Assembly: GCF_963678975.1 (NCBI RefSeq)
Contig: NC_089273.1
Location: forward strand, 26,058,356 to 26,122,355
Length of the DNA: 64,000 bases
Source of the DNA: Dysidea avara
Taxonomy: Eukaryota > Porifera > Demospongiae > Dictyoceratida > Dysideidae
Direction: 5' to 3'
The position numbers and the translations under genes were made by a program. Below the pieces are notes generated by a model that was given only the letters and a program-made list of their open reading frames with translations, had not been told where the DNA came from and searched no databases. Below are positions 13,204 to 57,478 of the stretch, piece by piece; within the stretch, counting starts at the first letter, position 1, and each line of letters starts with the position of its first letter.

Positions 13204-13657
13204 ATTACCACCCCCCTGGCTTGACCTGGGTACTCCCCTTCTAGTACGTGGACATCCTCCATGTATTATCGCAGTAGACTCAAGTCTTGTGGAATGTTTG
13301 GTCAACAGGTATCTATGGATTTCTTAGGCTTCTGTACATGTGCTCCATACCACAACTTACAAGGCACAACTATCCAGAGGAGAGGGACACATTCAAGTAC
13401 TAAGGGCTTGTGAAAATAGGGCAGCACAATCTACATCCCTTCACATGGCAGGTTATATGGATACAAAGCCAATGTTTAATAAGTGATGTAAATTGCATGA
13501 TCATAGTATGGCAAAATAAAAAGTTATGATACATGAAAGTTTGAGAAAGTCAGGAAACTGAACCTAGCTATGTGACTATTTTCAGAGGCACAATCTGGGA
13601 TCAAGTAGCTTTACAGATTGCAGAAAATATGGTATGTACAGTGCGTTATTACAGGTT

Positions 13658-13844
13658 TTTGCAATTGAATTAGTCGCCTTTGCAATTGAATTAGTCCCCT
13701 TTGCAATTGAATTCGTCCGTATTGCAATTGAATTCGTCCCGTTTGCAATTGAATTCGTCGGTTTTGCAATTGAATTCGTCGGTTTTGCAGTTGAATTAGT
13801 CGGTTTTGCAATAGAATTAGTCGCGTTTGCATTACAATTCGTCA
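13658..13844. repeat. 21-bp minisatellite, about 9 units
   Basis: Unit is close to TTTGCAATTGAATTMGTCSSS. Since 21 is a multiple of three and the unit lacks stops, several frames on both strands stay open, so the open frames are not evidence of coding. An inverted copy with about six units is at 41519-41648, with the same flank (TATTACAGGTTTTTGCAATTG in one, its complement in the other). Two decayed units occur at 18021 and 38575. Confidence 0.85.
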
Positions 13845-14213
13845 TGAACAAAACGGCTCCAAGAAACCAACCCGTTCATTAAGAGATGAACTATTTGCGC
13901 CTTGGAGCCGGAGTTACACTTGAGACACTAGAAGGTTATATATATATTTTTTGTAATTGAAGCTGGTAGTACGCGAAGTTGATAGCTGTCTGACAAGTTA
14001 ATTAACTTGCTCGCGAGTGACCACACCCATCAAGAATGGCGTAGTAGAGTTTGGAATGTTGCTGGATAGCAATACCAGAAATTTGATGTCATGGGCCTAC
14101 TGATTAAAAATTAAATTGACATACAGTGTTGGATTGGCAATACATCTCAAATAGTGGTGTACAATTTCCGCTCTGCAGTGAAGGTAATGAAATTTTGTAT
14201 AATAGAGGTTAAA

Positions 14214-17048: not shown

Positions 17049-18019
17049 GGTGCTGTTTTAAAGTAAGGAGTTTTGAGCATATATGCACGTACACAGTGCA
17101 AAACCTGGGGGTCTGGGGGCATGCCCCCACAGAAGATTTTTGAGAATTTACCCATCTAAAGTTAAATCTGGTGTAAATTTGGATCAAAAATTGCTCGACT
17201 AGTTATGCTAGCGATAATAACAAAGCAAAACGACTGAAGTATGATGTGATAGACCAGCTACCTCCAGGACAAGACACTTATGGCGTACGCGTTGTGATAC
17301 ACACTACATTATAGTCAATCAACTCAATTAATTTAAAAATGCAATAACATGCACACATGCATGCACATTAGAAACAATCATCAGTTTAGTCGGTGACTTG
17401 TGGCTTCCGGATGAATGGTTTTGTATAGACGAGCTGCAGGCTATAAAGGAACATGTACTTGTAAATTACAACAGAAATTGAAAAAAAAAGAAACAAGCAG
17501 TTTATATCTCACACAATGTTCCTTAACTGAGAAAGTTAAAGCACACAAACAGTTATTTCGAGTATCCCTTTGATGTGGTTAACACTCTAATTTATGAGGT
17601 ATAAATGTGCCATGATTAAACCATGCAGACACAGACACACACTACATACACAGTATGGCTTTGAAGTGTACTAAGTGGAAGCAAATTTTGAGGTTAGTGC
17701 AAGATAATATCGTGGTTAGGGACTAAATGGCTTCAAACCCTTTGGAATGTGTTGGTTTCAATCATTATAGACATTTATTCCAACATATGCATAGCTTTAA
17801 AAACATCGCATTCAAAAGTGATTGTATTATATGAATATTTTACACAGGTTGTCTACACTAATGCACACGACCAAAAAATGTACTAAATTTCTGGTAATGG
17901 GCTGTAGAGGAAGAATTATTGCCTTATAAAGAGTTGTTTACTACTGTTGTACTTGAACAAGTTCTTGTAGCAGCTGCTACATCATGTTTTCGTGTTTGCT
18001 CCAGCTGCTATTCTTGTTA
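17049..18019. other. Intergenic sequence upstream of the kinase gene
   Basis: No exon or complete element recognised. A repeat relic reading GGGGGTCTGGGGGCATGCCCCC occurs near 17107, as in the elements at 14214 and 15456. Confidence 0.4.
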
Positions 18020-18250
18020 CGGACGAATTTAACTGCAAAAACCACGAATTCAATTGCTATGGTGGCCGAGAAGGACAGTCCGCTGCGGCTTCACAAATGC
18101 GCTGCGGCTTCACAACTGCGCTGCGGAGTAAAAAACCGCAGCGCCAAACAAACTCTGCGCTGCGCTTGGTCATCACGTGTGACCGCGATTTTTAACCTGA
18201 AGGCACTAATTGGAAGTGTCAGTGTTACTAACACGTGGCGACACGTGGTG
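18020..18250. promoter_or_regulatory. GC-rich repeat module with three CACGTG E-boxes
   Basis: It contains short GCTGCGG direct and inverted repeats (18080-18145), related in inverted orientation to 38430-38610, plus two decayed 21-bp units. CACGTG occurs at 18174-18179, 18232-18237 and 18242-18247, all within 100 bp of the predicted start codon at 18271. The related module at 38456 also has a CACGTG, so at least one E-box is repeat-borne. Promoter activity is inferred from position only. Confidence 0.4.
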
Positions 18251-18270: not shown

Positions 18271-21200
18271 ATGGAAGAATTTGGCCACGATATTCAAGGC
18301 AATAATCCTGGATCCCTCCTTAGGGGTATTGGAAACTTTTTACTTGAAAGTTCAAGGGCCTTTGAGGAGCATCCTGGCAACAGCAGCAGAAGCTGTCAAC
18401 AGAGTCACACTGTAGAAACAGATGATGAACAAGAAGGTACAGTTACATTCTTTTTGAACATGATAAAAACACTCCATGGTGTTAAGTAATATAAGTACGA
18501 CTCAAATGACTACAACATGTGTGCTAAATTAATGCTGGTATTGTGCATATCCATAAAGGGGTGTCACCTTGGTAGATCAGTGTCATTCTGCACATGTGGT
18601 GAAAGTCTTGACCGAGCAAAATTTTCGCCTTGACCTGTGACTAAGTATTTTACCAGTGTGTGACCAGTGACTGTGTTTCTTCTCAAAGTTTTTTTTGACA
18701 TTTTTACTTTATTCCTATTTCCAATGTACGCTTGCGCTTGTACATGCAGTAGCTAACTTAGTATAATAATTTCTTGGTGTGTGCTATGTACCAACAACTG
18801 TGGAAAAAATAGTCTCAACAAATGTTTGTCTGTTAATTGTTTTCTTACTTCTTGTGAGTTGTGTATAATTCCTTAAAGTTCGCTTCAATACATATAGTTT
18901 TCGATTGTGGGTTTTGAACTCTTCATCTTGTCTTGACCTTTGACCCACTGTAGAGTGATTAGTGGCTTTGACCATTGACTTTGAGCTTGACAGCAATCAC
19001 AGATCTATGTATAGCAAGGGTCTGTGTGACACCCCTTGTATCCACTATCAAACAAATCTATAACATTAATACTTTTGGAATCATGTTTACGGTGAACAGC
19101 TGAGCTGGAGCCTAGTTCATGATCTCAACTTGTAATATCCAGAGTGGACTTATTTACACTAGCTATTCTGTTTGTGTGTAGATGTGTTGAAGAGAGCCAA
19201 TGCTATACAAAGAGTGTTGAAAACCCGAGTCCAGCCGAAGAATACCAACAAAGGAGATCTAACTGTAAGTGAGAGCAGTACACAATTTTTTTGTTAAATT
19301 CTGCATGCTTGATGTAGATTTCTGTCTGTGCCATGACAGAAACAAGCTCTGGTGAGTTCAAACGTGGAAAAGCGCCTTACGTTGAACTAGCAATAAAGAA
19401 GAGCGAGAAATATGCAAGTTTAGCAACAAAAGCTGCAAAAAAATGTGGTGTTGTTGCCAAGAATGGACAGACTCTATGCTTATTTAACATGAATGGTGCT
19501 CAGATTATGGATGAGGAGTTAGGTGTAGTACCATGGACGCTTGGTTGCTACTTGCGAAAATGTAGAAGAGCTGCAGAAAAATTGAAGATTGGTATTGGCT
19601 GCATTACCCAAGAGAAGGTATGTACCTCATATGTACAATGTGCTCGTATGTCACTATATAGATGGCTTGCTTTTTAAAGGTGTAATTTTAACCGTAACCT
19701 TACTCTCCAAGTTTTGTTGGTCATGAAATGTACTGTGACCTACACAGCTAGGGTTTTAGTGTGTCAGAGCTAGTTGGTTTACAGTATGGTATCATGGAAA
19801 AAAAATTGTGGCTGTACTATGTAACGTACCACAGTCAGGCTGGTAATTAAACACAAGCTGTTTAAATGCAAATACTTGTAGTAAAAACTATAGTTTCTTT
19901 CACAAGTCGTTGGGCTTTTGGTCCTGGTAGATTTTCACGTTGACCACAACCTTAAATTGACCGGTTAATAGGTACCCCCCGGATAGTAGTAGCAGCGCCA
20001 ATCTTGAATTACTGTCATAAAAGCTGTGGCTTGTGTCTGAATATTTGGATGCAAGTGTTGAAGCCGATGTTTGAAGGAGAAACTAAGCAAAGGATTGGTT
20101 TTAAGCTGGGAAATAGCAGTTTTTAGAGCAGCCTTTGCATAATAGTTGCATCGTTTTACTTCTGAAAGTTAAATAGCTGCGGCTGCTAACCGGTCAATTA
20201 CAGTATACCACGACTGTATCGGTATTTGCTGATACAACCTTATCCCTCAGGCCTTCAGCACTCAGGATTTCAGGTGTGTATATCGGCAAATTTCTCACTG
20301 CCATGTGAATAATACATCTTTGACACTAAGCTTTTTGTTTCTTGGGCACTTACTATAACAATTTATTTGTGCGTATGTTTGGGTTTTTATATGAATGGAT
20401 AATCTTGTATATGTATATATAGGATACATCAGTGCTATACTCAGCAAACCAGAGATTGCCATCAAAGGAAAAGAAGTGTAGGTGCTTAGCTACTTTTGTC
20501 TATTGTAAACAAATGTTTACTCTATTATGTAGCTTCCATTTCTCCAAGTGCTGAGAATGCATTTGGATTGAATGGTAAACTGTAATGTTACACTTCATTT
20601 ATTAGTAGCATTTTGATACATAGTAAAGTACTATTTTCCATCACAAGCTAGAGCTGTCTCTGTCAAAAGCAGTATGACAAGACTACAGATATGGTCCGTC
20701 ATCTTGGAACAAGACGCTAATGACATTGGATGCTATTTCCCGGAAGATGATGGATATGAGATTTATACAATTTATAAGAGTAAGCTATATATATACACGT
20801 ATGTAGTGTGTTTGTGACAGTTGTTTGTGCATGTACACACATGTAGTTCAGCCAGTAGGTATTTTAGTCAACTTGTACATGTATAAGTAAAGATGTCCTA
20901 GTATGCTACTTTTATGCTGTGATGTACTGTATATGTGACTAATTCTACACAAGAACCATGCAACATGTATATGTTCACCTTCAACTTTGGTAACCTGTTC
21001 TTTGGACTATCTGAGGCGATATGAAGTTTGGAAATTCTGTGAGCTACATACTAATTAAAAAGTCATGAATTTAGAAATGACACAATTCTAGTTTTTTAAA
21101 CTTCAATATCCGTCCCTCTATAAGTAATTTTCTCTTGATGTTAGATGGACCAAGACTGTTCCGTAATTGTTCCGTATGTATGATAATTCTACATTAACGT

Positions 21201-24200
21201 TTAGAGGCAGGTAGTCTGGGTGACACCCTGTCACTTATGGGGGGAATTACCCTAATAAACTACTGTTTGATAAACTGGAACAAGCTGTTACATGGGTACA
21301 GTATGTTACCATCAGACTTAAAAAATATCCTGACACAAAAAGGTATCTAAAAAGAATAAAAAGGTCCGAGATGTGGATCCGTAACTGAGCATGATTTTGT
21401 GACCACTGACTGTGTCATTGCTGCCTCCTAGTAGCTACTCTCGTTTTAGTACTACTTAAAATCTACAATGGTCAGGTTTTTCCATAGAGAGTACTGGCTC
21501 AGTAAAAAGTAACCAAACCTACCCTAATGCTAATCTGAGGTTTGCCTGTTAAGCATAATGATGTGTTTCATTGCATGTCTGTAGGTATGTAGTAGCCATT
21601 ACATACAGTATGCTACCATTCTGTTTTTTATCACAATTTTTATTTTTCTTCATAATTTTTGTCACTATCAAACACACTATATAGTTGTACGAAGGTAATT
21701 TTATGATGAGCTCAAGTGCACGCTCACTCGGGCCAACCCTAGCTTGCCTTGATCTCACCATAAGCCTTCAAGTATAAATAGAAAAGAAAAAAAAACAAGC
21801 AGTGAGCATTAATTGAAAATCGTCACACAAGTGCTATTGCATCTAATGCATGTATTTAGAAGAAGTCTATCTTATCACTGTGATTTGGCAACTATGAATA
21901 CACATAAACATTGACATTTCGTATCTGATTGCTCAAGCTACGTAAGAGAGTAGCTTACTGTTTTAAAATGTTTTCATGGGAATTTCAAGAGCAGTGCACT
22001 TTTATCTGCTGTGAACGAAAAGCATTATATTTGTACCAATTTCAAATTTCAGTGCCCATTGTCTATGTTTTTACTGAATAGAACATACGTGTAATGGACT
22101 GGCGTGGTAGTAAAGCTATAAGAGGAATTGTATCAGAAACATATTATGCTATACATATGTAAGTCACTAATGGTGGAGCAAAAATACAAGGGATTCTGTT
22201 TCAGAACTAAATTTTACATTTGATTAGTCACTGCGAAGTCACTACCAACAAGTTCCTCTTCATAAAGTATAATCTTGCACATCAAATCTGTTCAATAAGA
22301 AAGTTGTAGGATATTGACATAACTTTCTGTTCACTTGGTTTTGTATTCTATTGTAAACTTTGCTCTGTAACTGATGGTAACACTGATATGTACGTATGAT
22401 GATCATATACATGTTTTCACAGACAAAAATCCATTGCTCACTCCTGTGTTGGATGAAGAATGCTGTGTTAGAGGCCATGAAGTTACAGGCTCAAGTGATG
22501 GTTAGTGTTAATCTCTCTGTGTATATATATATCAGGTGTGTTTGTTACAGATTTTAATATTGTACACCAGAGTTCAACACCGATTGTTGTACAAAGCATG
22601 ACAAAGCCCATCTTATTGTACACCATATCATCTTATCACGGAGGCTGTACATATTCATGGAGAAAAGTCGGTGGAAACCAAATATTTCCATCTACTCCAG
22701 TTATATATGTTGATGAGCCTGGAATGTACCAGTGTTTAGTCAAGACAACACATGATTGTGTTCTCAGCGATTTGTTTCGAGTTCTCGTTAATCCAGGTCA
22801 GCTAGTTACACCTCATGCATACATATCTAAATGCGTGCATATACGTACAACTATTATCATACAGTATATTATAGTAGAGTAGTGGGTGTGACCGATGATA
22901 ATATCACCCAAAAACTGTCTTGATTTCCCCTCATGATGACATGACAGTATTGGCCAGGTAAAGTCAAGCCCAAAAATGCTTTCAGATTGACCCAAAATGT
23001 TTTCATCGAGTTGTTACAGAATAGAATATTTAACGGAATTTTCTACAAAACCTTTGTATAACATTCCTACGTATGGCTGCTTTATGAGAATTTTGAGTTA
23101 GGTTCAATATCCAGGTCTGACCCGGATGGGACCATGTGAGATCATGCATAAAGTTACACGATTTTAGTGATGGAAATGCATGCAGAGATAATAGCACCCT
23201 TCTATTATCTCTGCATGCATGCAATTGTACAGTGTACTGGCGTGGAGCCCTCGCCCATCATTCGAGAATGCGTTTCAGTATTTGTAATGATACATGGAGC
23301 TATGCCCACTGATCAGGATTGCATACGGGCACTCATTGCATCACAGCCACTTATCGGGATTGAGTGTTGCTGCTTGTAGGTAACCAGTTTAGCATCATGG
23401 GAGCTTACTCATAGGCGTAGCAACCTGGGGGGGAGGGGGGTGCTGGAGCCCCCCAACGATTTTCTGCTTTTAGTTAGTAAAAAGATCAAAATACTCTAAT
23501 AGAGCAGTCAATTACCCTAATAAAGCAGTCACAGTATTTAGAGGAGTGTAGCAAACTGTGAAGTTATAAATATGGTATTATCGGAGATATTTAGTGATAT
23601 AATGTGGAGAGCAACCACTGTTAGTAGGCTGAGACCTTTTTTTTCTTTGGTCTTCAGTTCTCAGTAGTGCGCATACCATACATATGCCTGGAACAGAGCC
23701 CCCCTTTCTAAAAATATTTTGCTATACCAATGTTACTTATGGTTGCTGTGGCATAGACTTATGCGCCCACTTGTTGATCATTGATGTTTGTTAAATACAG
23801 GAACTCTTTGGAGGTACTTACTCATTTCTTGCAGACGAATTTCCGATCCATGCAATAGCAAAATATAAAATAGCTCTTGGTACATGTCTCTGTTTTAATT
23901 AAACCGGGTCAGACATGGGTTACATCCGGATTACTATTTGGGTCTAGCGGGTCAGCAGTACTGACCCACTTTCAATGCTGTACTGCAGCACCCTGACTGC
24001 TTTATTAGTATACTGTACGGAAGGAAACTTGCAGAGGGAAGTTCAATGAATCAAGCAAAATGTCACAGTTTGTGACATAAAATTTGGCAAATTCAGTTAG
24101 TAAAGTGCATGCCCTTGTCTAATTAATTACCACCTTTGCGTGCCTCGGGAGGTGCTATGCCTTGGCGTCTACTATTCCAGACTAACAGTTATGCAACAAT

Positions 24201-27200
24201 CAACTAGCTCCAAGGCCAGATGAGTACACCTGGTGGATATGGTAGGACTCATGTATTGTCTGGACTCCAAGGTTTGAGGATAGCTACCGATACCATACGC
24301 TTAGTAGTTGGTGGCACTAGCAAAACTTTAGCTGGATGGTCCAGTGGTCCTTGGTGGCAGAGTTACACAAGGACTGATTTGTTTCATCAATATCAGCAGC
24401 AGGTTTACACACTTAAAATACATTTTTTGTATATACTAGTGAGCAAGCCGTTATTTCCTCATAAGCAAAATATTTGGATAGGGAAAATTTGGCAATGTAC
24501 CATATTTTCCAGCGTCAAAGTATATGGTAACTTATGTGACTGCTCTATTAGACTACCATGATCTTAGAAACAATACCAGTGGGCCAAAAATTAGTGGGTG
24601 GGTCATGGCCCACCTTGCTGAGCTGGCCTTGCATCAGTGGCTCCCCACCACGGGCTATTAGCCTACAAGTAGGCATGGCACCCATTAGTATCACCTCAAA
24701 CCACAGGAGAGTATGCATATACGCTAACGCTCAAATGCAATGTCATCTCACACAAATGTGAACAATTTAAAAAACTCACTGATAAAGGGCTTTGAAGATT
24801 GACGTGAGCATGATATATGAGTGAATGTGTCATGCTGATATGTGAATGTGCTGATATTGGATATTTGTATATAGATACAGAGCCTTCAATCACTAGTCTA
24901 CCTCCACCATTTAAAAAATGCAGAGGTATGTCTTCTGATGTTTAAACAGTCTACTTATCCATCAATTATATTGTTATCTAGTAAATGTACAACTCGGTTC
25001 TCCAAACACTTCAAGTGAGTAAGAAAGCAGGTTTGACAGTTTCTTGTCACACTCTTCATTTTATGTACATAGGTGGTCTAGCTAACACTATCAAACATAC
25101 AGGTAGGCACATTAGAAACAGTAATGTGATGGACACCTGTTTAGTCTTTATTGTACAGAGAAAATAAAATCACTGTGGGATGTCACAGCACAGAAAGCTC
25201 ATGGTTAGTATTTACAGTGTGTCGGATGATATACAATGGTTTTGTTTAGATGTCCAAGGTGTAGTCGAGCGCTATAAAGATCAATACAAAGGTATTCAGT
25301 CATTTGTCACTGATAAACATATATGCATGCCCATAGGAAACTCTCCTATTCATATTTCTCAAGAAGGTAACACTGGTATACAATATTTTTGATGTTTCAT
25401 TGTTTCTGTTTGTTCATATCATCATCCAGATCATCATCTGGATCAACATCCAGATCATCGTTCAAATTATCATCCAGATCATCGTTCAGGTCATCATCCA
25501 GATCATCATTCAGGTCATTGTCCAGATCATCATGATAATCCAGATCATCATTCAAATCATCATCCAGATCATCGTTCAGGTCATCGTCCAGATCATCATT
25601 CAGGTCATTGTCCAGATCATCGTTCAAATCATCATCCAGATTATCGTTCAGGTCATCGAAAACAAACAGAGCCAGAAAGTTCACAGCAGAACAACATCGA
25701 AGGTATGATACATGCTGTATATTAGGGGTTATGAAGTTTATGGGACAGATTTACATGGTGCCTTGGCAACAATGATTAGCTATAAACAAACCCAATAGAT
25801 GAAATTTATAATAACAAATGCGACTCAATTAACAATTCTTTCAAGTTGGCTGCTTTTACCATTTTATCGGTTTTGTTCATGTGTACAGATAACCAGATAG
25901 ATTAGTATATACACACCTTTGTTTACAAAAATAACCAGGTGTGCGCCCACGGCTGGTCTCGTCTAAAGAAGTATAGTAGAGAATAGCTATCATATGGAAG
26001 GAAACTTTGACAAATAGCCAGCTAATATAAAACTGCATTTGGCAAAATAAACTTTGGCGAACTTAGGTTAACTATAATGATAAGCTCAATCACTGCGAGT
26101 TCATTGGCAAGTTAAACTTTGGTAGCAATTCACCAAAGTTTTCTTCGCCAAAGTTTCCCTCTATACAGTATAGTAACTGTAGAATATATACTTGTGTTGC
26201 TGTTGCGTTCACTCTGTTACTACAATTATATCTATCTATTGTTTTCATTCAGAGAGATTAGATGAAGCTATACCAAAAAGAAAGAATGATAATTTTGCTA
26301 TCCAAGGCAAGTGGTCATGATAGCCAGTAGATCTTTAAGACAGTGTGTGGTCTACAGCACGAGAATTTTCAGAAAATGACATCGCTATCGCTACAAACAA
26401 CTTCAGTGATAGCAATAAAATTGGTAAAGGAGGATTTGGGATAGTTTATTTGGGATATATGAAAGGGACCAAAGTTGCAGTGAAAAGATTCACCGAGGTA
26501 TGTGCACACAATGTAGTAAGTTTTACATGCAACAATCTAGATATCTGTACAGCATGCCAGGCAACGGGGGATGGACATTCCAGACCAGTTTACCATTGAT
26601 GGGCAGCTTAATTGTGCAGCTTGGGCTCTGAGTAGGTACGTATGGTGATTGGCACCTGTGGTTTTATAAGAATGGTTCAAAGCAACTATGCTGAAAATAT
26701 AAATTTTGCATCTGCTAGTGTGTGAATCACACTCTGAAATGCAAAGCACTGCTTTCGAACACCAACTCATTGTGCAGTTGTGAACATCCTATAATATAGC
26801 ATATGGCTATGAAAATTTGGGCTTTGTTCTATTAGCCTCTCAGTATGCCTCCTTTGTCCTGTATTTTTCCATATGCATAAAGTCGCACATTCTGCGTGCT
26901 TTTACTAGAACTTACTTTTATTTGCAATAATACCAAAGTGCACGTTACTGTAAATGTGCAATGTGACAGTGGTACTACGTACGTAGATCACAGGATGTGA
27001 GACATCTCCTTTGACATCAAGTATCTGCATGCGACTGGTTTCTACCTCTGCATGATCATGATCATTCCTGTTGCACTCCTGCATGATCAGGATCAGTGAG
27101 TGAGGAGTGCAGAGCTGGGACTAGTGCCATGAACCAGAGGATTCATCAATGTACATTCACCTTTTGGCTTATATCTACTCTTGCCATAAAGTATATCCAA

Positions 27201-28392
27201 TTGTAAAGGTACCATGCACCATAAAGCAAATATTTTGATGCTAACTTGCAAACCTTTGTAATCATTATTACTATGATGTGTATTTATTTATTAGATGTCG
27301 ACAGAGGAACTTAGTAGAGTTGGTAGGCTTCTGTAAGAGCCCACCAATGCTGTTATATGAATACATGGAAAACGGAAGCCTGTATATTCGTCTATTCAAG
27401 GTACACAGTGTTGTTCATCTGCAGTGTGTATGCACGTATGGGAATTTCTGTGCAGAAAAAGCCACCATTGACTTGGCCACAAAGATCCAGAATTCTAAAA
27501 GATGTCTGCCGTGGTTTATCCTGGATCCACTCATGTACACCACCACTAATGCATGGTGATGTAAAACTGTACGTCTCCTTATATGTTTCTTCCATAGAAC
27601 ACTGTTTATACTTTATGTAGGCATAATATACTGCTTGATGAAAACCATCGAGCTAAACTTGGTGACTTTGGGTTTTGCCGGGAGTTACCACAGATGATAG
27701 GAGGCAGGTCTGTGGTCTCAGTTGCACTGGTAGCAAGATCAGCAGGATACGCCGCTCCAGAATCTGAAGGGGGACACATATCACCAAAAAGTGATATGTT
27801 CTCATATGGAGTGGTATGAACACCTTTTCATTGTTGATCATTTCAAGTTCCATGATAACTGTCATTCTGCAGTGTGCTTTAGAAATGTTTACTGGCAAGG
27901 TGGCATATGATAAGAGCAGAGATGACCCAAAATTGGTATATACACTTGTGTCCAGAAAAAAAATGGTCACACAATGTCTTCAGAATATGACATACATGTA
28001 TGGTTGAAAGGTTTAAAATGTTATGAACCAGGTTAAAGTTCGAATTGCAACCCATGGTCACACTTAAGGGTGTCATCTAGTTGACATTATATGACCAATT
28101 GTCCTGATTTAGTGAGTCACATTACGTATTATGTACTTGTTTAGATTGATCATTTTGATGAACAGCAGGGTTCTACAGAAGGCTACAAATCTATCGTAGA
28201 CACAACAGCTGGTGATCTGGAGCCATACCTTTTACATATTTACAATAAGCTAATTGAAAATTGTTTGCTAAAGCATAGCAAAAGGTGCACAAGTGAGAAG
28301 GTAGGTAGTAGTGTTAACATGCAACAACAAAAAGGTCATGTACCAACTTATTTTTATAGGTAATGGAGTGGTGGTCAGAAACAAAATTTTAA
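18271..28392 (+). CDS. IRAK/Pelle-like kinase with ubiquitin-like-looking and Ig-like domains
   Basis: Exons read: 18271-18436, 19182-19264, 19318-19617, 20423-20477, 20533-20574, 20654-20779, 22423-22500, 22551-22796, 24875-24925, 24982-25014, 25073-25102, 25159-25203, 25250-25291, 25337-25366, 25430-25702, 26253-26306, 26340-26497, 26553-26635, 27295-27400, 27456-27568, 27621-27813, 27873-27935, 28145-28300 and 28360-28392. Splice phases agree throughout. The start is the first ATG after an in-frame TAA at 18229. The kinase domain has glycine loop GKGGFG, VAVK lysine, YEYMENGSL hinge with a tyrosine gatekeeper, HGDVK catalytic loop, GDFG and APE, as in IRAK/Pelle kinases, which relay Toll/IL-1-type signals in the cytoplasm. 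No signal peptide or membrane segment was found, so an intracellular protein is inferred. It could be two genes if transcripts do not join the halves. Confidence 0.75.
19318..19617 (+). CDS. Kinase gene exon 3: compact, possibly ubiquitin-like domain
   Basis: A 100-codon phase 0-0 exon. The pattern is a first strand and helix ([20 protein letters not shown]), then [24 protein letters not shown] and a final strand IGIGCI. A V-x-h start, a helix, an L-x-x-x-x-G-x-x-I-x-D strand and a TLG turn resemble beta-grasp domains (ubiquitin-like, RA, PB1, CIDE-N). This is a fold guess by eye. The exon is sharply bordered by introns on both sides, which fits a mobile domain. Confidence 0.4.
20654..20779 (+). 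CDS. Kinase gene exon 6, unrecognised segment
   Basis: A 126-nt phase 1-1 exon whose acceptor (AGAG) is chosen because an upstream AG gives an in-frame stop. It encodes an acidic, aromatic stretch including [19 protein letters not shown]. No family recognised. Closely spaced tyrosines in an acidic context could be phosphorylation sites, which is speculation. Confidence 0.55.
22551..22796 (+). CDS. Kinase gene exon 8: single Ig-like domain
   Basis: An 82-residue phase 1-1 exon. Visible landmarks are ILLYTISS (B strand, Leu where Cys is usual), CTYSWRK with the core Trp, [12 protein letters not shown] with the F-strand Tyr-x-Cys, and a second Cys in HDCVLSD. The short Cys-x-x-x-Trp spacing and the extra cysteine differ from classical I-sets. 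Ig-like folds do occur in cytosolic signalling proteins (for example MALT1), so an intracellular Ig domain would not be unique. Confidence 0.65.
23176..23222. repeat. Perfect hairpin in intron
   Basis: Arms TGCATGCAGAGATAATAG and CTATTATCTCTGCATGCA (18 bp each) are exact complements around a 7-nt loop. It lies in the intron after the Ig-like exon, beside a partial R1 repeat (22881-23045). Confidence 0.7.
23410..23732. mobile_element. Small MITE in the kinase gene intron
   Basis: Termini CATAGGCGTAGCAA and TTGCTATACCAATG are imperfect inverted repeats. TTACT flanks both ends. The interior carries a CTATTAGAG motif pair (about 23488-23530) and resembles the 16640 element in its T-rich and motif parts. 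Confidence 0.6.
23733..24874. other. Intron, no convincing exon
   Basis: Holds GGGTCAG/CTGACCC repeat relics near 23910-23970 and a CTATTAGA relic near 24540. An open frame at 24220-24420 has no recognisable domain. Confidence 0.45.
24875..25366 (+). CDS. Run of six mini-exons in the kinase gene
   Basis: Exons of 51, 33, 30, 45, 42 and 30 nt (24875-24925, 24982-25014, 25073-25102, 25159-25203, 25250-25291 and 25337-25366) are separated by introns of roughly 45-60 bp. All are phase 1-1 and keep the frame if skipped or included. Together they encode a hydrophilic linker between the Ig-like domain and the His-rich repeat, with no membrane segment. Splice sites are individually good, and the consistent phase supports them. 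Confidence 0.6.
25430..25702 (+). CDS. His/Asp-rich repeat exon of the kinase gene
   Basis: A 273-nt phase 1-1 exon built from about nine degenerate 24-nt units, encoding 8-residue repeats of the kind [16 protein letters not shown] or CPDHHDN, then a non-repeat tail ending QQNNIE. The reverse strand is open too (Asp/Leu/Asn repeats) but has no supporting splice context. Dense histidine and aspartate with some cysteine could bind zinc or copper; that is inference. One unit is shorter by two residues while the frame is kept. Confidence 0.65.
25703..26252. other. Intron with foldback relic
   Basis: At about 25969-26174 outer segments reading TATAGTAGAGAATAG and CTCTATACAGTATAG flank GGAAACTTTG and CCAAAGTTTCC, so a decayed inverted-repeat MITE is likely. 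No exon. Confidence 0.45.
26340..28392 (+). CDS. Protein kinase domain exons (IRAK/Pelle type)
   Basis: Exon 26340-26497 has [29 protein letters not shown] and VAVKRF. Exon 26553-26635 fits between by phase (0 to 2) and should carry helix C, but Ala stands where the conserved Glu is expected. Exon 27295-27400 has [10 protein letters not shown] and the hinge. Exon 27456-27568 has LTWPQR...LSWIHS and HGDVK. Exon 27621-27813 has HNILLD, GDFGF, YAAPES and SDMFSYGV. Exons 27873-28392 finish the C-lobe. Lys, catalytic Asp, Asn and DFG Asp are all present, so ATP binding and catalysis look possible despite the helix C change. Confidence 0.85.
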
Positions 28393-28539: not shown

Positions 28540-31500
28540 TCAGTCACTGTCACTGTCATCAATACATTCTAGATCTGATGTTACAACATCAAGGCTACAG
28601 ATGGTTACGCCACTCTCAATCAGCCTATCCACAAGGCACACTAAAGACAGGTAAATGCTGTGGCAGTTATCATGGGTGATTCCGGTTGGAGTTAAGCCAA
28701 ATGTGTTCCGTAAAATAGTAGTGGCAGCAGTTCCAAAGTCATCAGGATACAAGGCTGGCGGTCTGACTGACTCTTCCAGCATACACCTGGCCCACAACTG
28801 TGAATCGATACTTTTTAGCTGGTCTTCTACCCCTAGATTTACATATGCTCACTGTAAACTAACTATTCAAGGTAGTGCTTCTTACCATGTAATGCAGGCA
28901 TGTCATAGATGTCATCAGGGCAGCCATGCACAGTCTGTTGACGACGGTTCTTCCTAATAGGATGAGAGTTCCATTCAATCTTGAAATCATTGAGATCTCT
29001 TTGGAGTAGTCCACCAAAAGTGAATGCAAGTGAATATCTAGCAAGAATAAAGCAACTTATGCTGTATGAATGCATTTTCTCACTACCTTTCAATCATATT
29101 GGAATTGTCATACAGTCCTTCTGACTGAAGACCCTGTTACACTTTAATAATATGTCACAGTAGTGTTGCACAACAAACCCACTTTACACATGTCAATCCA
29201 CCAACTAGTCTTAAATCGTCGCAACTGAGACCACCAAGCTTCGATTCTCTGTAATATTGTAAATTCCATTACAAATACACAGTAGTATTCACTTATATTC
29301 CTTACAGTGTTAGCTGTTGAAGGCCCATATATAAAACTCTTTGAGCCAGACAAACAGTCATCATGGTCCAAACGAAAAGCAACGTGAATTGTAGCCACTC
29401 CACAATTTTCAGTGCCATGATCAGCACGCACAATTCTTGGACAGCCTGGCAGAAAAGCCATGAGTGAGACATGTGGAAACAAATTGTACGTGGATTTAAA
29501 AGTTGGCACCAAGTACTGATATACACAGAAGATGTTATAGTTGTGCAAAATGTAGAAGTCTACTTTTACAAGTATAAGGAAAAATTAGAAATTTTAAACT
29601 AGAGTAGGGGTCAAGAGTGCTCCAATAAAAAGTATTGAAACAAGCTGGAGTAAAGTGCACAGTATTAAATATTAAGCACAATTAAAATTAATAATTAAAC
29701 AATTAAAATTGTTTTACTGTGATTTAACATTGTGCACTTTACTCCAGCTTGTTTCAGTACCTTTTATTGGAGCACTCTTGACCCTTACTGTAGTTTAAAA
29801 TTTCTTTATACTTGTTTGTTTACTTTTTTTCAAATAATTATTATGGCTGGTGAACCCACACATACCACATCAAATAAAAGAAATGGCATCACGTGCCCCA
29901 GTTAATAAATTATCGTCTGAAAAGTTAAGTATCCAATACACTTTGTTGTTAGCTATGTTCATCCTGTTACACACCAGTACAAGTCAACAACTGCTCAAAA
30001 AGCACCTCAGCAATGTAAATAACCATTATGAAAATACGGATGATTTCATTTATAAGAAAAGAAGCCATCATGTGCAACCTCCAATAGACACTTTTCGCTG
30101 TCAGCAAAGATGAATGGAACACAGAGGAGGATACTAGTAAGTCCATGAAGAATGCATTGTACGTACTGTGGCATGCCAAAAGGCACCTCTCAGGCTGAAG
30201 CGATGTCGAATAGTGAAAAAATCAAGCCCGTAGCCTTAGCTGTTATCAAGTTACACTAGTCTGAAGTCAGCAGTCAGTAGAAAATTCTGTTAAATAAAAA
30301 AAATTAAAATTTTGTAGCGACTCAATGAAAGCATTTTAGATCAATGTGAAGGCACTTTTGGGCTATATATTTAGCCTAACCCAAGTGGCAGTGAAGGGTT
30401 TCTGGCCGATATTTTTCCAAGGGCCACGCCCACATCTTTGAGACTCCTACTATACAGTACTACCGTACTGTATGAAACACACTGTACTGCATTAAATTCA
30501 GATCATGTACAATGCAAATATGCACCAACCCTTGGCATTTTCCACTGCTTCTAAGTAGTATCTAGCAATAACTTTTGGGACATGATTGGTGGCAGACAGT
30601 CTTAGCCAAATCAATTTTCTGGAGTAGCTAAATGACAGTTTTAATATTACATAAGAACAAAATAATTGCTTTTGTCCTTACCCATCAATGCATCCATGGA
30701 TAGGTAGGCCATATGGCGACAACTTGTCGTATCCATCAAGATGCCAGATGTAGTTTGGACCCTGGAAGACAAATTAGAGTAGAATAATCATAAAGTATGG
30801 TACTACATACTAGGGATCGCCCCTAAAACAAGGGGTGCTGAAAAATTACTGCTTCTAAAAACCAGTCTAGAGGTATCTTAAGCAACAAAAATCACCTACA
30901 CATAATCTCAAAATACAACACCACAACATAGCAGACAGCAGGACATAGATTTTAAAAAACATCATCAAAACCTGCAGTTTGGTCAGCCTAACCGTAAATA
31001 GCCATGACGCAGTGTTTAGTGTGTCACATATTTCAAACCACACATAAGTTTAATATGCAAGGGTGAATACAGGGCATGTGGGTACATATAATATACTGCT
31101 GCAAGAAAATTCACGGTTGCATCATATTAACATGGTGTACTGCATATGTATGTGCATACTAACCTTAGAGCTATACATTCGACGCTTTAGTTTTCTTTTC
31201 CTACGAAGCTTGACACCTTCAGGATCAATTTGTCTTAATATTTTCATAACAGTATCTCTATAGAACATAATCAGTTGGATGGGACTACACCTGTACATTC
31301 TACAAGTGGCCTGTTGCTCAGTCTAACACCAAAATTGTAATGAAATCTACTGAGCAGAATTGTGTTAAATACAATCCAGAATAGTGCTGAGCAGTTCTGG
31401 TATTTTATAAACAGTACAGTATTGTTAATTTGATATTGTGATATAACTAAATTATTGACATGTCTCAGTTTGACACCTGTGGTTTTACATTTAGACACTG

Positions 31501-33926
31501 AAATATCCCTAATCATTTCAACAAGTATAAGGAAAACTTAGAAATTATAAACTACAGTAAGGGTCAAGAGTGCTGCAATAAAAGTACTGAAACAAGTTGT
31601 AGTAAAGTGCACAATATTAAATCACAGTAAAACAATTAAAATTGTTATATCGCTACTGTGCATTTCCATCTTATGCACAACAGGGATATAACAATTTTAA
31701 TTGTTTTACTGTGATTTAATAACTCCAGCTTGTTTCAGTACTTTTTATTGGAGCACTCTTGACCCCTACTCTAGTTTAAAATTTCTAATTTTTCCTGATA
31801 TTTGTTTGTTTACTTTTTTTCAAATAATTATTATGACTGGTGAACCCACGCATACCGTATCAAACGAAAGAAATGGCATCGCGTGCCCCAGTTAATCAAT
31901 TATCGTCTGAAAAGTGAAGTATCCATTACTCTTCATTGTTAGCTATGATCAACCTGTTGCACTGCAGTATGAGTCAACAACTGTTCAAAAAGTACCTCTG
32001 CAATGTAAGTAGCCAATATGAAAAATACGGATGATTTTCATTTATAGGAAAGGAAGCCATCACGTGCAACCGCCAATCGACACCTTTCTCTGTCAGCAAA
32101 GATGAATGGAACACAAAGGAGGATACTAGTAAGTCCATGAAGAATGCATTGTACGTACTGTGGCATGCCAAAAGGCACCTCTCGGGATGAAGCGACGTCG
32201 AGTAGTGAAAAATCAAGGTCGTAGCCTTAGCTGTTATTGAGTTACGCTTGTCTGAAGGCATCAGTCAGTCAGTCAGTAGACAATTCCATTAAATAAAAAA
32301 CTTAAAATTTTGTAGCGATTTGTTGAAAGCGTTTTAGATCAATGTGAAGGCACTTTTGGGCTATATTTAGCCTAACCAATAGTGCAAAGTGGCCATGAAG
32401 GATTTCTGAGCATGGTTTCTGGCCGATATTTTTCCAAGGACCACGCCCACATCTTCGAGACCCCTACTATACAGTACTACTGTACTGTATGATAATGACA
32501 GAATCATGTTGAACACTGATTACAATATTTGCAGCATTACATATCCACTTATACACACTGTAAGGACACTTCTTCTCACAGGCATGTTATCAAAGAAGAT
32601 TGTGTTTCAGAATCCACGGTATTTGCGGCAGCAGTTAAAACATTATAGTATGTACAAGTTGAGCTGAGAAATCAGCTATAAACAAACAGTAGATTTTTTC
32701 ACAAGGAAAAATCCAACCAGGTGGTTAGTGATGACAGTAAATAGATGAAGAGAACTTATAGTTTGGATTGATAACAAGTTCAGGAAAGGATCGTAAGACT
32801 ATGCACTTCTGTGGCTTTTCAACAGGAAATTTATGGAGAACACATTTATTGGTTATTACACCCTTTTGGATAGTTTAAGCATTGGGGAGCATTGATCTGG
32901 CTAACTTGAGGGCTAGATGTTAAGATGTGCCTCTAATGACAATGAGAACTCTCTCCTCTGTAATCCGACTATCAAGAATTATGTTAGATCATGCAGTAAA
33001 TTACAGGTAAAATGGAACACACAAGCTTTTAGCATATGATTAATGAATTTGTTTGGAAGTATTACAGCTTTTTTCTGTTATTGTTTAAAACTAATTAAAT
33101 GTTTTAAAATTATTTTCTGTGATTGTTTTTAATGCTGCTATTATTCTCTGTCAGATTACAAAGGTCGAAAACAATGTACCCGGAACAGTCATGCTGGTAA
33201 ACTGTTCATCATATAGATCCAAGTTCAACTATAGTGGCTGGCTATTTTATATTCTCTCGTGCAGCTATCAATGATGAATTACACATGCCAACAATGATCT
33301 CGACCTGCCCATAGAACTTAGAACAGAGTGCTGATTTCTTCCCTGTATATCTAAGTCTGGAGAATCAAATTTTGTGACGGATTACGGAGTACAGAATACA
33401 GAGGTTGTTTCTAAACAAAGTGTCAGTAAATGAAATTTTGGTTGGAATAGAGAGGATTCTGTACTATACAGGTGTAGGATTAGAGAGGTTCGACGGTACT
33501 ATTGTATAGTACAATAGAATACAAACTTGTATGTAGAAAATCACAGAACCCACAAAGTTTCATGTTACCTTCTAACCACAATATTGTACTTCCTATACAA
33601 AAGTCGCCATACTGCACGGTAGCCACGAAGTTGATCCGAGGAGCTTAGGATTGACTACAAAAACAAATACACAAGAAAATATACTTTGCTATTTCAATTA
33701 CTGTACCTCTACAAGAGATTTCACAGTGCTCTGCGGTGGATCAGGTCTTCGTCTCTTAAGACCCAACCGTCTAAGTTCTACTTTTAACCAGGACACACTA
33801 ACAATTAGTAAAAAAGGATTTTAAAACATGCTTTACAAAATAAAAGAAATCACCTTCTCTGCAATCCATGTACATGCTTCAGTTGCTGCAGGATAACTTT
33901 GTATGGCCTTGCAGAGTAAAACAACT
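28540..33926 (-). CDS. Integrase-core (DDE) domain protein, multi-exon, 5'-partial
   Basis: Eleven exons on the minus strand: 33926-33854, 33797-33707, 33654-33569, 31257-31164, 30761-30682, 30627-30530, 29445-29306, 29248-29183, 29133-29087, 29037-28886 and 28832-28540. All phases agree and no internal stop is seen (about 406 residues). Landmarks are the basic DPEGVKLRRKRKLKRR helix, GPNYIWHLDG (first Asp), IHGCIDGYSRKLIWLRLS, VRADHGTEN (second Asp), RIEAWW (Glu) and LLQRDLNDF...EWN. This matches the animal integrase-core proteins related to transposon or retroelement integrases, with an apparently intact D-D-E triad. The C-terminus ends in an acidic DDSDSD. The stop at 28540 faces the kinase stop, 147 bp away. 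The first exon is missing. It could be a domesticated gene or an intron-containing mobile element. Confidence 0.75.
29568..29820. repeat. Foldback palindrome F1, copy 1
   Basis: Arms (about 29568-29672 and 29718-29820) are reverse complements and share GTCAAGAGTGCTCCAATAAA and CAAGCTGGAGTAAAGTGCAC. It lies in an intron of the integrase-core gene. Copies are at 31521-31803 and, split by an insertion, at 48353-48992. Confidence 0.8.
29821..30470 (+). repeat. R1 dispersed repeat, copy 2
   Basis: It directly follows foldback F1. The F1+R1 block repeats as a unit at 31521-32490, about 1.96 kb downstream. R1 itself also occurs reversed at 5340-5965 and 47680-48300. Confidence 0.8.
31521..32490 (+). 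repeat. F1 foldback plus R1 repeat, copy 3
   Basis: Palindrome arms are about 31521-31650 and 31685-31803; the right arm has a small deletion next to AACTCCAGC. R1 sequence follows to about 32490. It lies within an intron of the integrase-core gene, so the two F1+R1 copies sit in two different introns of the same gene. Confidence 0.8.
32491..33568. other. Intron of integrase-core gene, nothing recognised
   Basis: AT-rich sequence with no element ends or open frame of note between the exons at 31164-31257 and 33569-33654. Confidence 0.45.
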
Positions 33927-34787
33927 CTTTAATAACTATACAAAGTAAAACAGTTACAGTTCAGCTTACAATTTATTAGTCAACAACTATCAATAAGCCC
34001 AGGCCACAAAGCATACCAATATTCAGTCAATGGAACCCAATACTAGGACTGCATTCTTTTTCAAAACTACTGCAGGGCACAAAAGGATTATTGAAATCGT
34101 TTTGTAAAATCATGTGTCTGCAATGCCATATGCATGTGTTTGTCATGAGAATTATCCATGAAACAAGTACACGCACTATAATTAATATACTCAATGTTAA
34201 AATAGTTTAGAGTTGTGAGTTGTCATTTCATGCAAGTGTGAAACACAGATTTACTCTATTGTAGGATTACAATTTGCACAGTACCATATGAAATAACATG
34301 GTGGTGGTGGGAGGGGGAAGGATAGTTTGTAAAGAATTTATCTGGAGGCATGCCTCCAATCCTTCGTACAGAGATCCTCTCCGCATTCTGTATACGTTTT
34401 GCATACTGCTTTGCAACTAGAATCCCCTATCTGAAAACAATCTGCTATGCAAACTACAGAGGATATGTGCTACCTTTATTACAACTTTCCAATAAAAAAC
34501 ATGATTACTATAAAAAACATGATTACTATTTTTGTTTCATCATGATGGCATTGCAGATATGCATAGAAAGTGTGAATTGCAGAAATTAGACCTGTTACAG
34601 GAGTTTCTCCAGAATGATAGGTGTATCACAGAAGGAGAAACATAATTCGTAGTTGAGGTGGTCAGTTATAGAATGAGCCACATTTACTACCCCTACTTTT
34701 GTATGGGACATACGATAGTCATTCACTGTCAAATTCTTGGACATGCTGCTAATCTTATTATATTCATCAATTTTTGTTGAAATAACA
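33927..34787. other. Upstream of integrase-core exon; possible 5' LTR at right end
   Basis: No first exon of the integrase-core gene could be identified. The last part probably contains an LTR ending in ...AATAACA at 34787, because a primer-binding-site-like TGGCGCCAGAAGC starts at 34788. The LTR start and a 3' copy were not found. Confidence 0.35.
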
Positions 34788-38429: not shown

Positions 38430-38715
38430 ATTCTAATTAATGCTTTTTTCACAGTGACACGTGACAACCAAGCGCAGCGGTGACCGCTGCGATTGTTTTC
38501 TCCGCTGCGGTTTTTTACTCCGCAGCGCATTTGTGAAGCCGCAGCGGACTGTCCTTCTCGGCCACCATAAATTGCAAAACCGACGAATTTATTTGCAAAC
38601 GGGACTGTAGGCGCAATCTGTGAATTTGCGCAGTTTATAAATTGCGCTGCGCATTTTGTGAATTCATAAAATGCGCAACAATTTATAAATTGTTGCGCAG
38701 TTTGTGAATATTTGA
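38430..38715. repeat. GC-rich module and GCGCA hairpin cluster
   Basis: The left part is the inverted counterpart of 18020-18200 (CCGCTGCGG, CACGTG and two decayed 21-bp units). The right part has several overlapping short hairpins such as GCGCAACAATTTATAAATTG and TTGCGCA. Related hairpin clusters are at 40911-41030 and 41428-41515. Confidence 0.7.
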
Positions 38716-54673: not shown

Positions 54674-54694
54674 GTCTGTGATTATTTTCGAGGA

Positions 54695-55683
54695 ATGCAA
54701 GCATTGAAGATGTTTCAAATTTCAAAAAAATACCACTGCTTCTCTGGCAATGTGTTCCTCAGGTTTTCTACCATATCATCCCAACGGTCATCATTGCTTG
54801 GACATCACCTCATGCATAGACCACTGACTGTTCGTAAATTTTCATTTGGACCATTTGATATATCATTTCCATTTAATATTACCATGCAATTTTTCAAGAG
54901 GTTTGGAAAATCAAGAAAGTCTGAACAAAGAGTTGGCAATAAAGATGTTTATTTGGTAGAAGACCATTTCAATCATCCTGAAGTACAAAGAAATGCTCTG
55001 GTCAATAAGCTTTCACAAACTATTCAAGATACTAAAAGCAAATGCACAAAGGTTGTATATGTATATGGCTTACCAGGTATTGGAAAGAAGGAATTAGTTA
55101 GGCAGTTTGCCAAGCAGCACTATGAAATGCTGGAAAAGAAAAATATACCCAAAAAGTTTGTGGCAATGATCAATGCATCAGATCCAAACAGTTTCCATCA
55201 TGATTTATTCAAAGTAGCTGAGCAAGCAGATGCCATAGAGAATTTTGAAGAATATACCAAGAAGACAAGTAAAGTTGAAGGGTACAAAGATATATTAACA
55301 AAAATTTCATCTCGTTTGAAAGATCGATCAAATTGGCTTCTTGTTTTAAAGGACATTAATTTAGGAGAGGAACTCAACTGGCAAATTGGATACACACCTC
55401 TTGAAAGTGTGGAGTTTATAAAACTTCAAGCAATGAATCTCAGTGATTATCTCCCTTCTCCAGGATACCCTAGCCATGGTACCATTATTGTAACAACAAG
55501 CAATAACAATGCTTACTCACATAAAAAGTCATACACAAAATGCTTTACCATGCCAAAAGGGATGGAAGATAAGGAAGCACTTGAGCTATTGCAGCATGCT
55601 AGTGGCTTTGATTTACAAACATGTAAACAACCAGCTTTACGAGTTGTACATGGTTTAGAAAATGTCCCCACATCTGTTTTCTG
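54695..55683 (+). CDS. NB-ARC/STAND-type ATPase exon, 3'-partial
   Basis: About 330 residues in one open exon. Landmarks: P-loop GLPGIGKKE (residues about 125-133), a kinase-2/Walker B-like NWLLVLKDIN (213-222) with Lys where the first Asp of the usual DD pair sits, RNBS-B-like GTIIVTTSN (262-270), and KGMEDKEALELLQHASGF (from about 288) as at the start of the ARC helices. Such STAND ATPases act as nucleotide-switched platforms in cell death and immunity. The last codons run into a perfect GTAAGT donor (55684), so C-terminal repeats expected of this class are on later exons, not found here. A TTTCTCTAG acceptor at 54673 keeps the frame open upstream of this ATG, so the true exon may start at 54674. 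Confidence 0.8.
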
Positions 55684-57478
55684 GTAAGTTTTATGTAGAT
55701 GTTTGTACTTGTGTTTAAATCCAATTGTTGACATTCTGTTCATTATGTATGTACATTGCACACACATGCACGTACGTACATGTAGATGTGGAAAATTGAA
55801 TAAATAATTGCAATAAAACAGTTATCATGTGCAACTCTTTTTGTCCACATTAATTATAGTGTCAATTGACAATTGATTTAGACATCAATCAATCAGTAAA
55901 TCTATCAATCAATATCAAAATCAATTGATCTACTATATTTATTTATACAAAAGTCTTGTCAATTATCTGGCTCATAACACAATCTTTTTTTGCCTTGTTG
56001 TCCATGTGCAACTTTTCAATTGTTGTCTAAAAGATACCATCTAAGAGTTTTGACCACCATCGATCAGCTTCCATGATGGGATAATTGTGAGAACAGTCAC
56101 TCCAATTATATGTCATAGCAGTCCCTTAGAATTAATGCTGATTGTAAAATGCACATGCACTAATGTTAACATACCAGTAAATTCCCCTAGACTGTGTTAT
56201 TTTGCATCTTTTCAACCCCTCCACACACACTTGATAAGCAGTTAACACAGCAACTGTGAAAATCCTTAAAATTTCATAGCGTGGGACAATGACCAGTATT
56301 TTAACCATCTGTAACTGCAATCATGGGCTATGGAATCCTCCAATTGGAGAGACAGTGAATTGAGAAAGGGAATACAGAAATGCGAGACATCTCCACTTGA
56401 AAACTGAACTTATGTAACTGCATGGTGGTTGAGATCATTTTCAGCTCTCTGTTTGCACAATCAACTGTGACTTGCTGCTTGGCAAAGTGCTGGCTTAAAG
56501 TAATGAGTTATATCCGTTCTGTAGTCAGTGTAACATAAACTTGAATATGAGACAGCTCTTCATCAACATAAACTTGAGGTAGCTACATGATCTGTGATAG
56601 TAAAATCAGTATTGGCATGGAACCATGAAAATAGAATCGTGAATCCTGTTTTGGTTTACAACCATGAAAATTTCTTGCCACGGAAATGTTCATGCATGCT
56701 GCAGTATAAAAACCTGGAACAGAGTGGAACCAAAACAGGATCAGTTGGGGTGTGTGTTATAAAAAAAATCAATAATTTTGGCAAGCTTGTATCGTCCCCA
56801 ACCATTGCACTTACGTAAGTCAAACTTACCCTGGATTTGCCTACAGCCACAGTCAAAATTGTTTACGCAGAAATTGTATTTAATATCCAGTAAAATTCTA
56901 TTAAACACACACCATTCCGCATGCTTTCTTTGCTGAATCCTTCAATTGAAGGCCAATCACATGGTAAAATCACTTCTTAGTTGCTCCATCAACTAAAATA
57001 TCAATATTGTATATTGTACAAAATTTTTGTACCTAAGCTTTTTATAACAGTTAGGCTGAAGATAGTCTTTTGCACATAAGCTAAGGTGAGACCAAAATAC
57101 AGGTTGACTATATTTTTGAAATTCTATATCTTGATCCCTGTAAGTGTTTTCTTGTTTTAATACTGTATATGGTATTGATTGGAGCAAGACTATTCTGTGA
57201 AATTGATTTCGTTACATATATATGAATTTCTATGATGGTTTTTAGTCAGACTAAGACATGGCATTGTTAGTGGTACTCATTGCTTTAGGCTACTAAGAAG
57301 TACTACGGTATTATATTGTTTGATAATGTCAGCTATTTTTAAGCTTAAAATGTGTGGTATATACGTATAATGAAAGATACTGAATGCAAAATATTCTAAT
57401 CCAGTGCTGAGAAATGACCTGTTGTTTTCAGCATGTGTTTGCATAACTGTTTGCGTAGGCCATACAGGTCACATAGCA
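55684..57478. other. Intron or intergenic after the NB-ARC exon
   Basis: No phase-2 exon with recognisable sequence was found. It holds an ATCAATCAATC simple stretch near 55880-55925 and an inverted pair around 56600-56750 (AACCATGAAAAT against CCTGGAACAGAG regions are only weak). The hAT element follows. Confidence 0.4.

Follow-up and report, generated by a model that had tools for sequence, protein, structure and literature searches.

Does the IRAK-like kinase gene in this stretch of DNA from the sponge Dysidea avara encode a host signalling protein of unusual architecture, or does it belong to something else? We analysed the whole stretch of 64,000 nucleotides (the window; C2:26058356-26122355), and searched the source genome (550.8 Mb, 108 contigs) with its parts. 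Positions given without a contig refer to the window.

Structure of the predicted kinase gene

Following splice sites by hand, we rebuilt the gene as 24 predicted exons of consistent phase on the forward strand (18271-28392). They form a single frame of 848 aa from ATG to TAA (stop codon at 28390-28392) and use 22 GT donors, one GC donor and 23 AG acceptors, bearing out the phase-consistent exon chain proposed in the preliminary description of the locus. Exon 1 (18271-18436) contains the ATG and encodes an N-terminus that aligns with a paralogue on contig C3 and with a sequence at C14:2.28 Mb. It is followed by exon 2 (19182-19264), placed by the splice chain and by alignment with the C3 paralogue, and by exon 3 (19318-19617), which is modelled as a ubiquitin-like beta-grasp domain. 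Exons 4 and 5 (20423-20477 and 20533-20574) form a linker placed by splice phase alone, and exon 6 (20648-20779) carries a conserved module, IW..IL....D..GYEIY, with no fold assigned (43.6% against the paralogue). A further linker, exon 7 (22423-22500), placed by splice phase, leads to exon 8 (22551-22796), modelled as an Ig-like domain. Linker exons 9-11 (24875-24925, 24982-25014, 25073-25102) and 12-14 (25159-25203, 25250-25291, 25337-25366) were placed by the splice chain and the paralogue alignment, in which exon 9 is the only one of the six to have a counterpart. Exon 15 (25430-25702) consists of a His/Asp tandem repeat missing from the paralogue, and exon 16 (26253-26306), with the GC donor, is a linker placed by the splice chain. 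The kinase domain, recognised by Pfam, PDB and motif matches, occupies exons 17-20 (26358-26497, 26553-26635, 27295-27400, 27456-27568) and 21-24 (27621-27813, 27873-27935, 28145-28300, 28360-28392).

The His-rich repeat, which had been counted among the features of the protein, is most probably a tandem array that has not been conserved. Its sequence can be described by a 12-bp unit in 20.5 copies or a 48-bp unit in 5.2 copies, and it reads open in several frames on both strands. No counterpart appears in the alignment with the C3 paralogue gene. Given the tandem-array nature and the absence from the paralogue, we rejected the repeat as a protein domain, and the short linker exons at 24982-25366 are as unsupported as the repeat itself. 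The absence of a signal peptide and of a membrane segment was confirmed: the mean Kyte-Doolittle hydropathy over 19 residues reaches a maximum of 1.0 over the protein and 0.31 within residues 1-58.

The C-terminal part of the protein matches the Pfam families Pkinase (3e-33) and PK_Tyr_Ser-Thr (1e-30). Its best PDB match is IRAK4 (1e-41), with plant receptor kinases close (BAK1, 2.1e-41), which agrees with the earlier designation of the kinase as IRAK-like. A motif check found the Lys, HGD, DFG and APE motifs in the window kinase, but the alphaC Glu is replaced by Ala (NCAAWALS), whereas the C3 relative keeps it (NCEAWALT). Among the residues of an active kinase (Lys, alphaC Glu, catalytic Asp and DFG), the alphaC Glu is therefore missing from the window copy, and because of this substitution the copy may, judging by its sequence, be a weak catalyst or a decoy.

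Animal kinases of this type would be expected to carry a death domain, and the preliminary description had recognised none. We looked for a hidden N-terminal one with the Pfam Death and DED profiles and obtained no match in the N-terminal piece or its paralogue at an E limit of 10, in a search where the HMMER filters discard most matches above E 0.1. With 213 bp separating the ATG from the left end of the transposon described below, there is little room within the element for an upstream death-domain exon. The claimed absence of the domain is in this respect upheld.

Exon 19318-19617 has no Pfam match above cut-off. One of five structure models was well folded (pLDDT 89.6, pTM 0.81, against pLDDT of 58.9, 43.3, 39.3 and 37.2 for the others) and adopts a beta-grasp fold; its structural matches include ubiquitin, UFM1 and ATG8, none of them reaching E 0.001. 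The exon therefore models as a ubiquitin-like beta-grasp domain, in line with the earlier suspicion. The domain is internal, ending in IGCITQEK with the chain continuing, and the conjugatable C-terminal Gly is missing. Exon 22551-22796 models as an Ig-like domain, less firmly than the beta-grasp exon. The canonical Ig residues C..W..YxC are present in the C3 relative (LYCIAS, YQW, YQC), and the window copy has Thr for the first Cys. The joining of kinase, ubiquitin-like and Ig-like parts without a death domain, the central proposal of the preliminary description, is predicted in the paralogue as well and in that part stands; its Ig-like component is modelled with less firmness.

The gene lies within a DNA transposon

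The kinase gene is enclosed by a DNA transposon of 20,512 bp (18058-38569). Its left terminal inverted repeat (18058-18107, forward strand), which starts with TATGGTGGCCGAGAAG, is complementary at 50 of 50 positions to the right one (38520-38569, reverse strand), forming a perfect 50-bp repeat. The element is bounded by a target-site duplication, AATTGC, present in identical form at 18052-18057 and directly past the right end at 38570-38575. The 16-bp tip of the transposon occurs 31 times genome-wide, compared with 0 occurrences of the reversed control.

Spliced alignment revealed a second gene on the reverse strand (28591-33939), a transposase with a conserved 381-aa core in 10 exons and no internal stop; the ends of the gene may lie beyond this core. 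Core exons 1-5 lie at 33854-33939, 33707-33797, 33569-33654, 31164-31257 and 30682-30761, and core exons 6-10 at 30530-30627, 29306-29445, 29175-29248, 28886-29037 and 28591-28832. The kinase and transposase genes are on opposite strands, tail-to-tail, with the transposase core beginning 198 bp past the kinase stop. In Pfam the transposase matches the rva_4 integrase core (6e-28) and, under the cut-off of that family, rve (2.4e-4). Candidate DDE residues lie in the motifs IWHLDG, RADHGTEN and RIEAWW, which are invariant in three elements.

Three features of the IS3EU superfamily were found: a 6-bp duplication, ends of the form TAYGG..CCRTA (TATGG..CCATA in the window, TATGG..CCGTA in the C3 relative) and a DDE integrase-type transposase. 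By ends, duplications and transposase type, the predicted element fits with IS3EU. It is a cut-and-paste DNA transposon, autonomous-looking. In the window and C3 elements together, ten additional open frames gave no Pfam match at 0.01, and an Rfam scan of the window gave no match at the gathering threshold. A search of viral_contigs with the ubiquitin-like exon, the kinase and the transposase returned no relatives.

Other parts of the window contain further genes and repeats. An NB-ARC-like ATPase (PF00931, 9.5e-6) is encoded by an open frame at 54674-55687 on the forward strand, outside the transposon, which is possibly an NLR-type gene. A hAT transposase frame of 615 aa with a BED finger and a hAT dimerisation region lies at 57641-59488, and a Sushi/SCR domain frame (4.6e-8), part of another gene, at 2371-2688, both also on the forward strand. 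The 21-bp motif GATACTCTAATAGAGCAGTCA, probably a small repeat family, was found with up to 3 mismatches in 19 places (0 expected), 17 of them within 1539-24557. By eye, the unit of a tandem array at 13568-13882 resembles the flanks of the transposon insertion (18018-18057 and 38570-38609).

Related elements in the genome

Searching the genome with the kinase yielded four equal matches on four contigs, among the best 150 of 791 candidates scored. One of them belongs to an element of 13,237 bp from tip to tip (about 13.2 kb; C3:10836966-10850204), and the copies on C12, C14 and C15 are 99.4-99.9% identical to it over the 5-7 kb pieces compared. All four copies of ~13.2 kb are sharply delimited and carry terminal inverted repeats, and each has its own 6-bp duplication (GCCTTG, CTAATG, ATATCC and CATCAG), with 3 extra bases between duplication (CATCAG) and tip in the C12 copy. 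This relative has been copied recently, and its four copies are young.

The window and C3 elements have the same overall layout and kinase exon order. In both genes the N-terminus, the ubiquitin-like exon, exon 6, the Ig exon and the kinase follow one another in the same order. Identity is 48% for the ubiquitin-like exon, 44% for exon 6, 41% for the Ig exon and 67% for the kinase; the 381-residue transposase core is 72% identical. A stop codon interrupts the ubiquitin-like exon in one of the four near-identical copies. A relative on C13 is decayed: stops interrupt its kinase part, and the ubiquitin-like exon has no match in it.

Matches to individual exons are mostly located in such elements. 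The genome contains at least eight matches to the ubiquitin-like exon, five of eight being in complete elements. The match at C14:2.28 Mb has a tip upstream, with neither a kinase nor a transposase match in the 10 kb that we read there, and those at C1:20.87 Mb and C14:11.80 Mb have neither tip nor transposase in the stretch read. The Ig exon of the C3 element has at least six matches, five of six in elements; the remaining one, weak (E 0.007) and located at C5:19.43 Mb, lies near no transposase match. Two more inverted pairs of tips, about 21 kb apart, occur at C2:11799609-11820592 and C2:13739383-13760013. Among the matches listed, none to the ubiquitin-like exon, the C3 Ig exon, the kinase tail or the transposase falls within them. 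We did not retain them as further copies: the repeats of the 11.80-Mb pair diverge soon past the tip, and the flanking six bases mismatch in part. They may be elements that carry something else, or pairs formed by chance.

In the comparison of the window with the C3 element, where synonymous sites are saturated or nearly so, pN/pS is 0.26 (0.20-0.32) for the kinase, 0.22 (0.17-0.26) for the transposase, 0.45 for the ubiquitin-like exon and 0.44 for exon 6 and the Ig exon together. Such low values in spite of the saturation show that the kinase was retained as a protein while the lineages of elements separated. The N-terminal part of the protein changes faster than the kinase.

Kinase and transposase genes are paired across the genome

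The transposase core as a query recovered at least 100 matches in the genome, which merge into 56 loci (C14:12034149 and C14:12038222, tallied as two, may be one). A kinase gene lies beside the transposase in at least 37 of the 56, 29 of TKL type and 8 of the window type. These genome counts are lower bounds, based on the best 150 of 791 candidates for the window kinase and the best 150 of 374 for the TKL-type kinase. Every one of the seven listed matches to the C-terminal tail of the window kinase, the window included, adjoins a transposase match, and the exon of a second Ig type has four matches, all less than 2 kb from a transposase match. The TKL-type query gave 56 matches, of which 30 (29 loci) are tail-to-tail with a transposase at a distance of at most 2.5 kb. 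The 26 best are all among these 30, as are 29 of the 31 best; the other 26 matches, mostly weaker, are far from any transposase. Random placement of 56 and 56 points gave a mean of 0.05 and a maximum of 1 pair in 2000 trials, at a 5-kb limit that is looser than the 2.5 kb applied to the observed pairs.

We read two further 10-kb neighbourhoods and four short ones around transposase loci. Window-type kinase tails are found beside the transposase at C4:21.6 Mb and C12:24.2 Mb. At C14:8.2 Mb, C13:9.55 Mb and C4:49.1 Mb the kinase is different, being the TKL type used as the query above, and ahead of it lies an Ig-like exon, of the second Ig type, which can be aligned with the Ig exon of the window; the closest PDB entries to the kinase at C14:8.2 Mb are CTR1, TAK1 and MLK. 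Even where transposases share only 33-54% identity with the query over the matched exons, a kinase occupies the corresponding place. At 19 of the 56 loci the genome searches found no kinase. Thirteen of these look like another, intronless subfamily, and the other six are unsorted. One of the six, the transposase locus at C14:1.349 Mb, has no kinase over the 2.9 kb read. The occurrence of a kinase in one and the same place in dozens of related transposons suggests that such genetic parasites make use of their own signalling enzyme.

On C14, between about 4.56 and 6.33 Mb, at least 10 places show 42-49% identity to the activation-segment exon of the window kinase and have no transposase match nearby among the matches listed. 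These are possibly host relatives and the source of the IRAK-like cargo.

Possible role of the kinase

The product of the kinase gene is most likely an accessory protein of the transposon. We think it probable, though well short of certain, that the kinase is the second gene of an IS3EU-like cut-and-paste transposon and acts in trans on host signalling. The first gene would supply the DDE integrase-type transposase, and the second, tail-to-tail with it, a kinase combining ubiquitin-like, Ig-like and IRAK-like parts. Produced together with the transposase, the kinase would work in trans on innate-immune, NF-kB-like or DNA-damage pathways of the host, with the ubiquitin-like and Ig-like domains as putative docking surfaces, and host cells would then tolerate the transposon or fail to silence it. 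Host signalling is preferred as the target because the architecture resembles that of cytosolic immune signalling proteins and because the N-terminal part diverges faster.

The main rival to this reading has the kinase phosphorylate the transposase directly. By acting on the transposase or on the complex that binds the transposon ends, it might time or limit transposition, and the Ig-like and ubiquitin-like parts might hold both together. The pairing of the two genes at 37 of 56 loci is consistent with this, as is the report, in the available part of PMC12730594, that in fungal IS3EU elements the transposase faces a kinase of a different kind, encoded in the opposite orientation, which implies that kinase activity as such may be the retained trait. 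However, the N-terminal pN/pS (0.44-0.45) is higher than that of the kinase (0.26) and the transposase (0.22), and this faster divergence fits a host-facing surface better than contact with a conserved partner. We regard phosphorylation of the transposase as a serious but rather unlikely explanation.

It is improbable that the kinase is passive cargo, a captured host IRAK-like gene without function for the element. Transposons often capture host genes, and the cargo is broken in some copies. Yet constraint at the protein level is seen between elements with saturated synonymous sites, the seven listed matches to the kinase tail all adjoin a transposase, and transposases as distant from the query as 33-54% identity are still accompanied by a kinase in the corresponding place.

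The protein resembles a metazoan cytosolic signalling protein, and the preliminary description had read the gene as one of the host. On the view that an architecturally unusual host signalling gene simply overlaps a transposon, the gene would nevertheless have to begin 213 bp inside one transposon end and stop 198 bp before a transposase, with perfect repeats and a 6-bp duplication enclosing both genes, and the pair recurs on other contigs between different flanks. In view of the terminal repeats, the target-site duplication and the dispersed copies, we dropped the host-gene reading, whose probability we consider very small. Next to no likelihood attaches to a Maverick/Polinton-type virus-like element with kinase cargo, in spite of the 6-bp duplication, the integrase-like enzyme and the kinase cargo reported for Mavericks in the available part of PMC10680173, given that the C3 relative measures ~13.2 kb and is mostly spanned by two genes, that no Pfam family is matched at 0.01 by ten additional open frames from two elements, and that the terminal sequence is the one given for IS3EU in the portion of PMC12730594 at hand.

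The kinase kept beside 37 of 56 transposase loci here, together with the different kinase reported for fungal elements of the superfamily, raises a testable question: which protein must a kinase-bearing transposon phosphorylate, and why?

Comparison with known systems

DNA transposons are usually thought to require a transposase only. The kinase domain resembles those of the IRAK/Pelle kinases in having IRAK4 as its best match, but here it is borne by a transposon and accompanied by ubiquitin-like and Ig-like domains instead of a death domain. MALT1 combines a death domain, Ig domains and a paracaspase; the present gene has neither paracaspase nor death domain, and many other Ig domains match exon 22551-22796 as well as or better than those of MALT1.

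Nematode Mavericks carry krma kinases, which the available part of PMC10680173 links to horizontal transfer and toxin-antidote systems. In both cases a large eukaryotic DNA element disperses a protein kinase family as its cargo. Mavericks are a virus-like class, unlike the present element, and the likeness noted here is one of cargo role.

The IS3EU superfamily is described, in the part of PMC10045372 available to us, by TA..TA ends, 6-bp duplications and a DDE transposase of the IS3/IS481 kind. The window element resembles it in its TATGG..CCATA ends, its 6-bp duplication and its rva_4 integrase core. It differs from the elements presented there in its second gene, a multi-exon Ig/ubiquitin-like kinase; in the main text, as far as it was available, the words 'kinase' and 'sponge' have 0 occurrences each. 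Closest are the fungal TET+ IS3EU elements, for which the accessible part of PMC12730594 (2025) gives terminal inverted repeats TAYGG..CCRTA, 6-bp duplications, and a TET/JBP gene between the oppositely oriented transposase and alpha-kinase genes. Matching ends, duplications of 6 bp and a kinase opposite the transposase are common to both. The fungal elements combine an alpha-kinase with a TET/JBP dioxygenase, whereas those of the sponge carry PF00069 kinases with an Ig-like domain, to which one clade adds a ubiquitin-like domain; no dioxygenase was found among the ten further open frames scanned in the window and C3 elements.

In the literature, as far as our sources extend, we found no DNA transposon described as bearing an IRAK- or MLK/TAK1-like kinase with Ig or ubiquitin-like domains, and no transposons with such kinases beyond the fungal IS3EU alpha-kinases and the krma kinases of Mavericks. 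Annotated 'host kinases' of IRAK-like or MLK/TAK1-like type, and counts of kinome expansion, may in genomes of this kind include transposon genes in part. IS3EU elements are already known, and the kinase slot across the superfamily seems unexplored. A tentative and bolder reading, about which we are more doubtful than confident, is that IS3EU has a standing kinase slot, filled variously and kept since every lineage rewires host signalling to transpose. The slot would hold an alpha-kinase in fungi and, here, an IRAK-like or MLK/TAK1-like kinase with a shared Ig-like domain, joined in one clade only by the ubiquitin-like domain, and the pathway would be immune, NF-kB-like or concerned with DNA damage. 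If so, transposons equipped with their own mimic of immune signalling would be described here for the first time.
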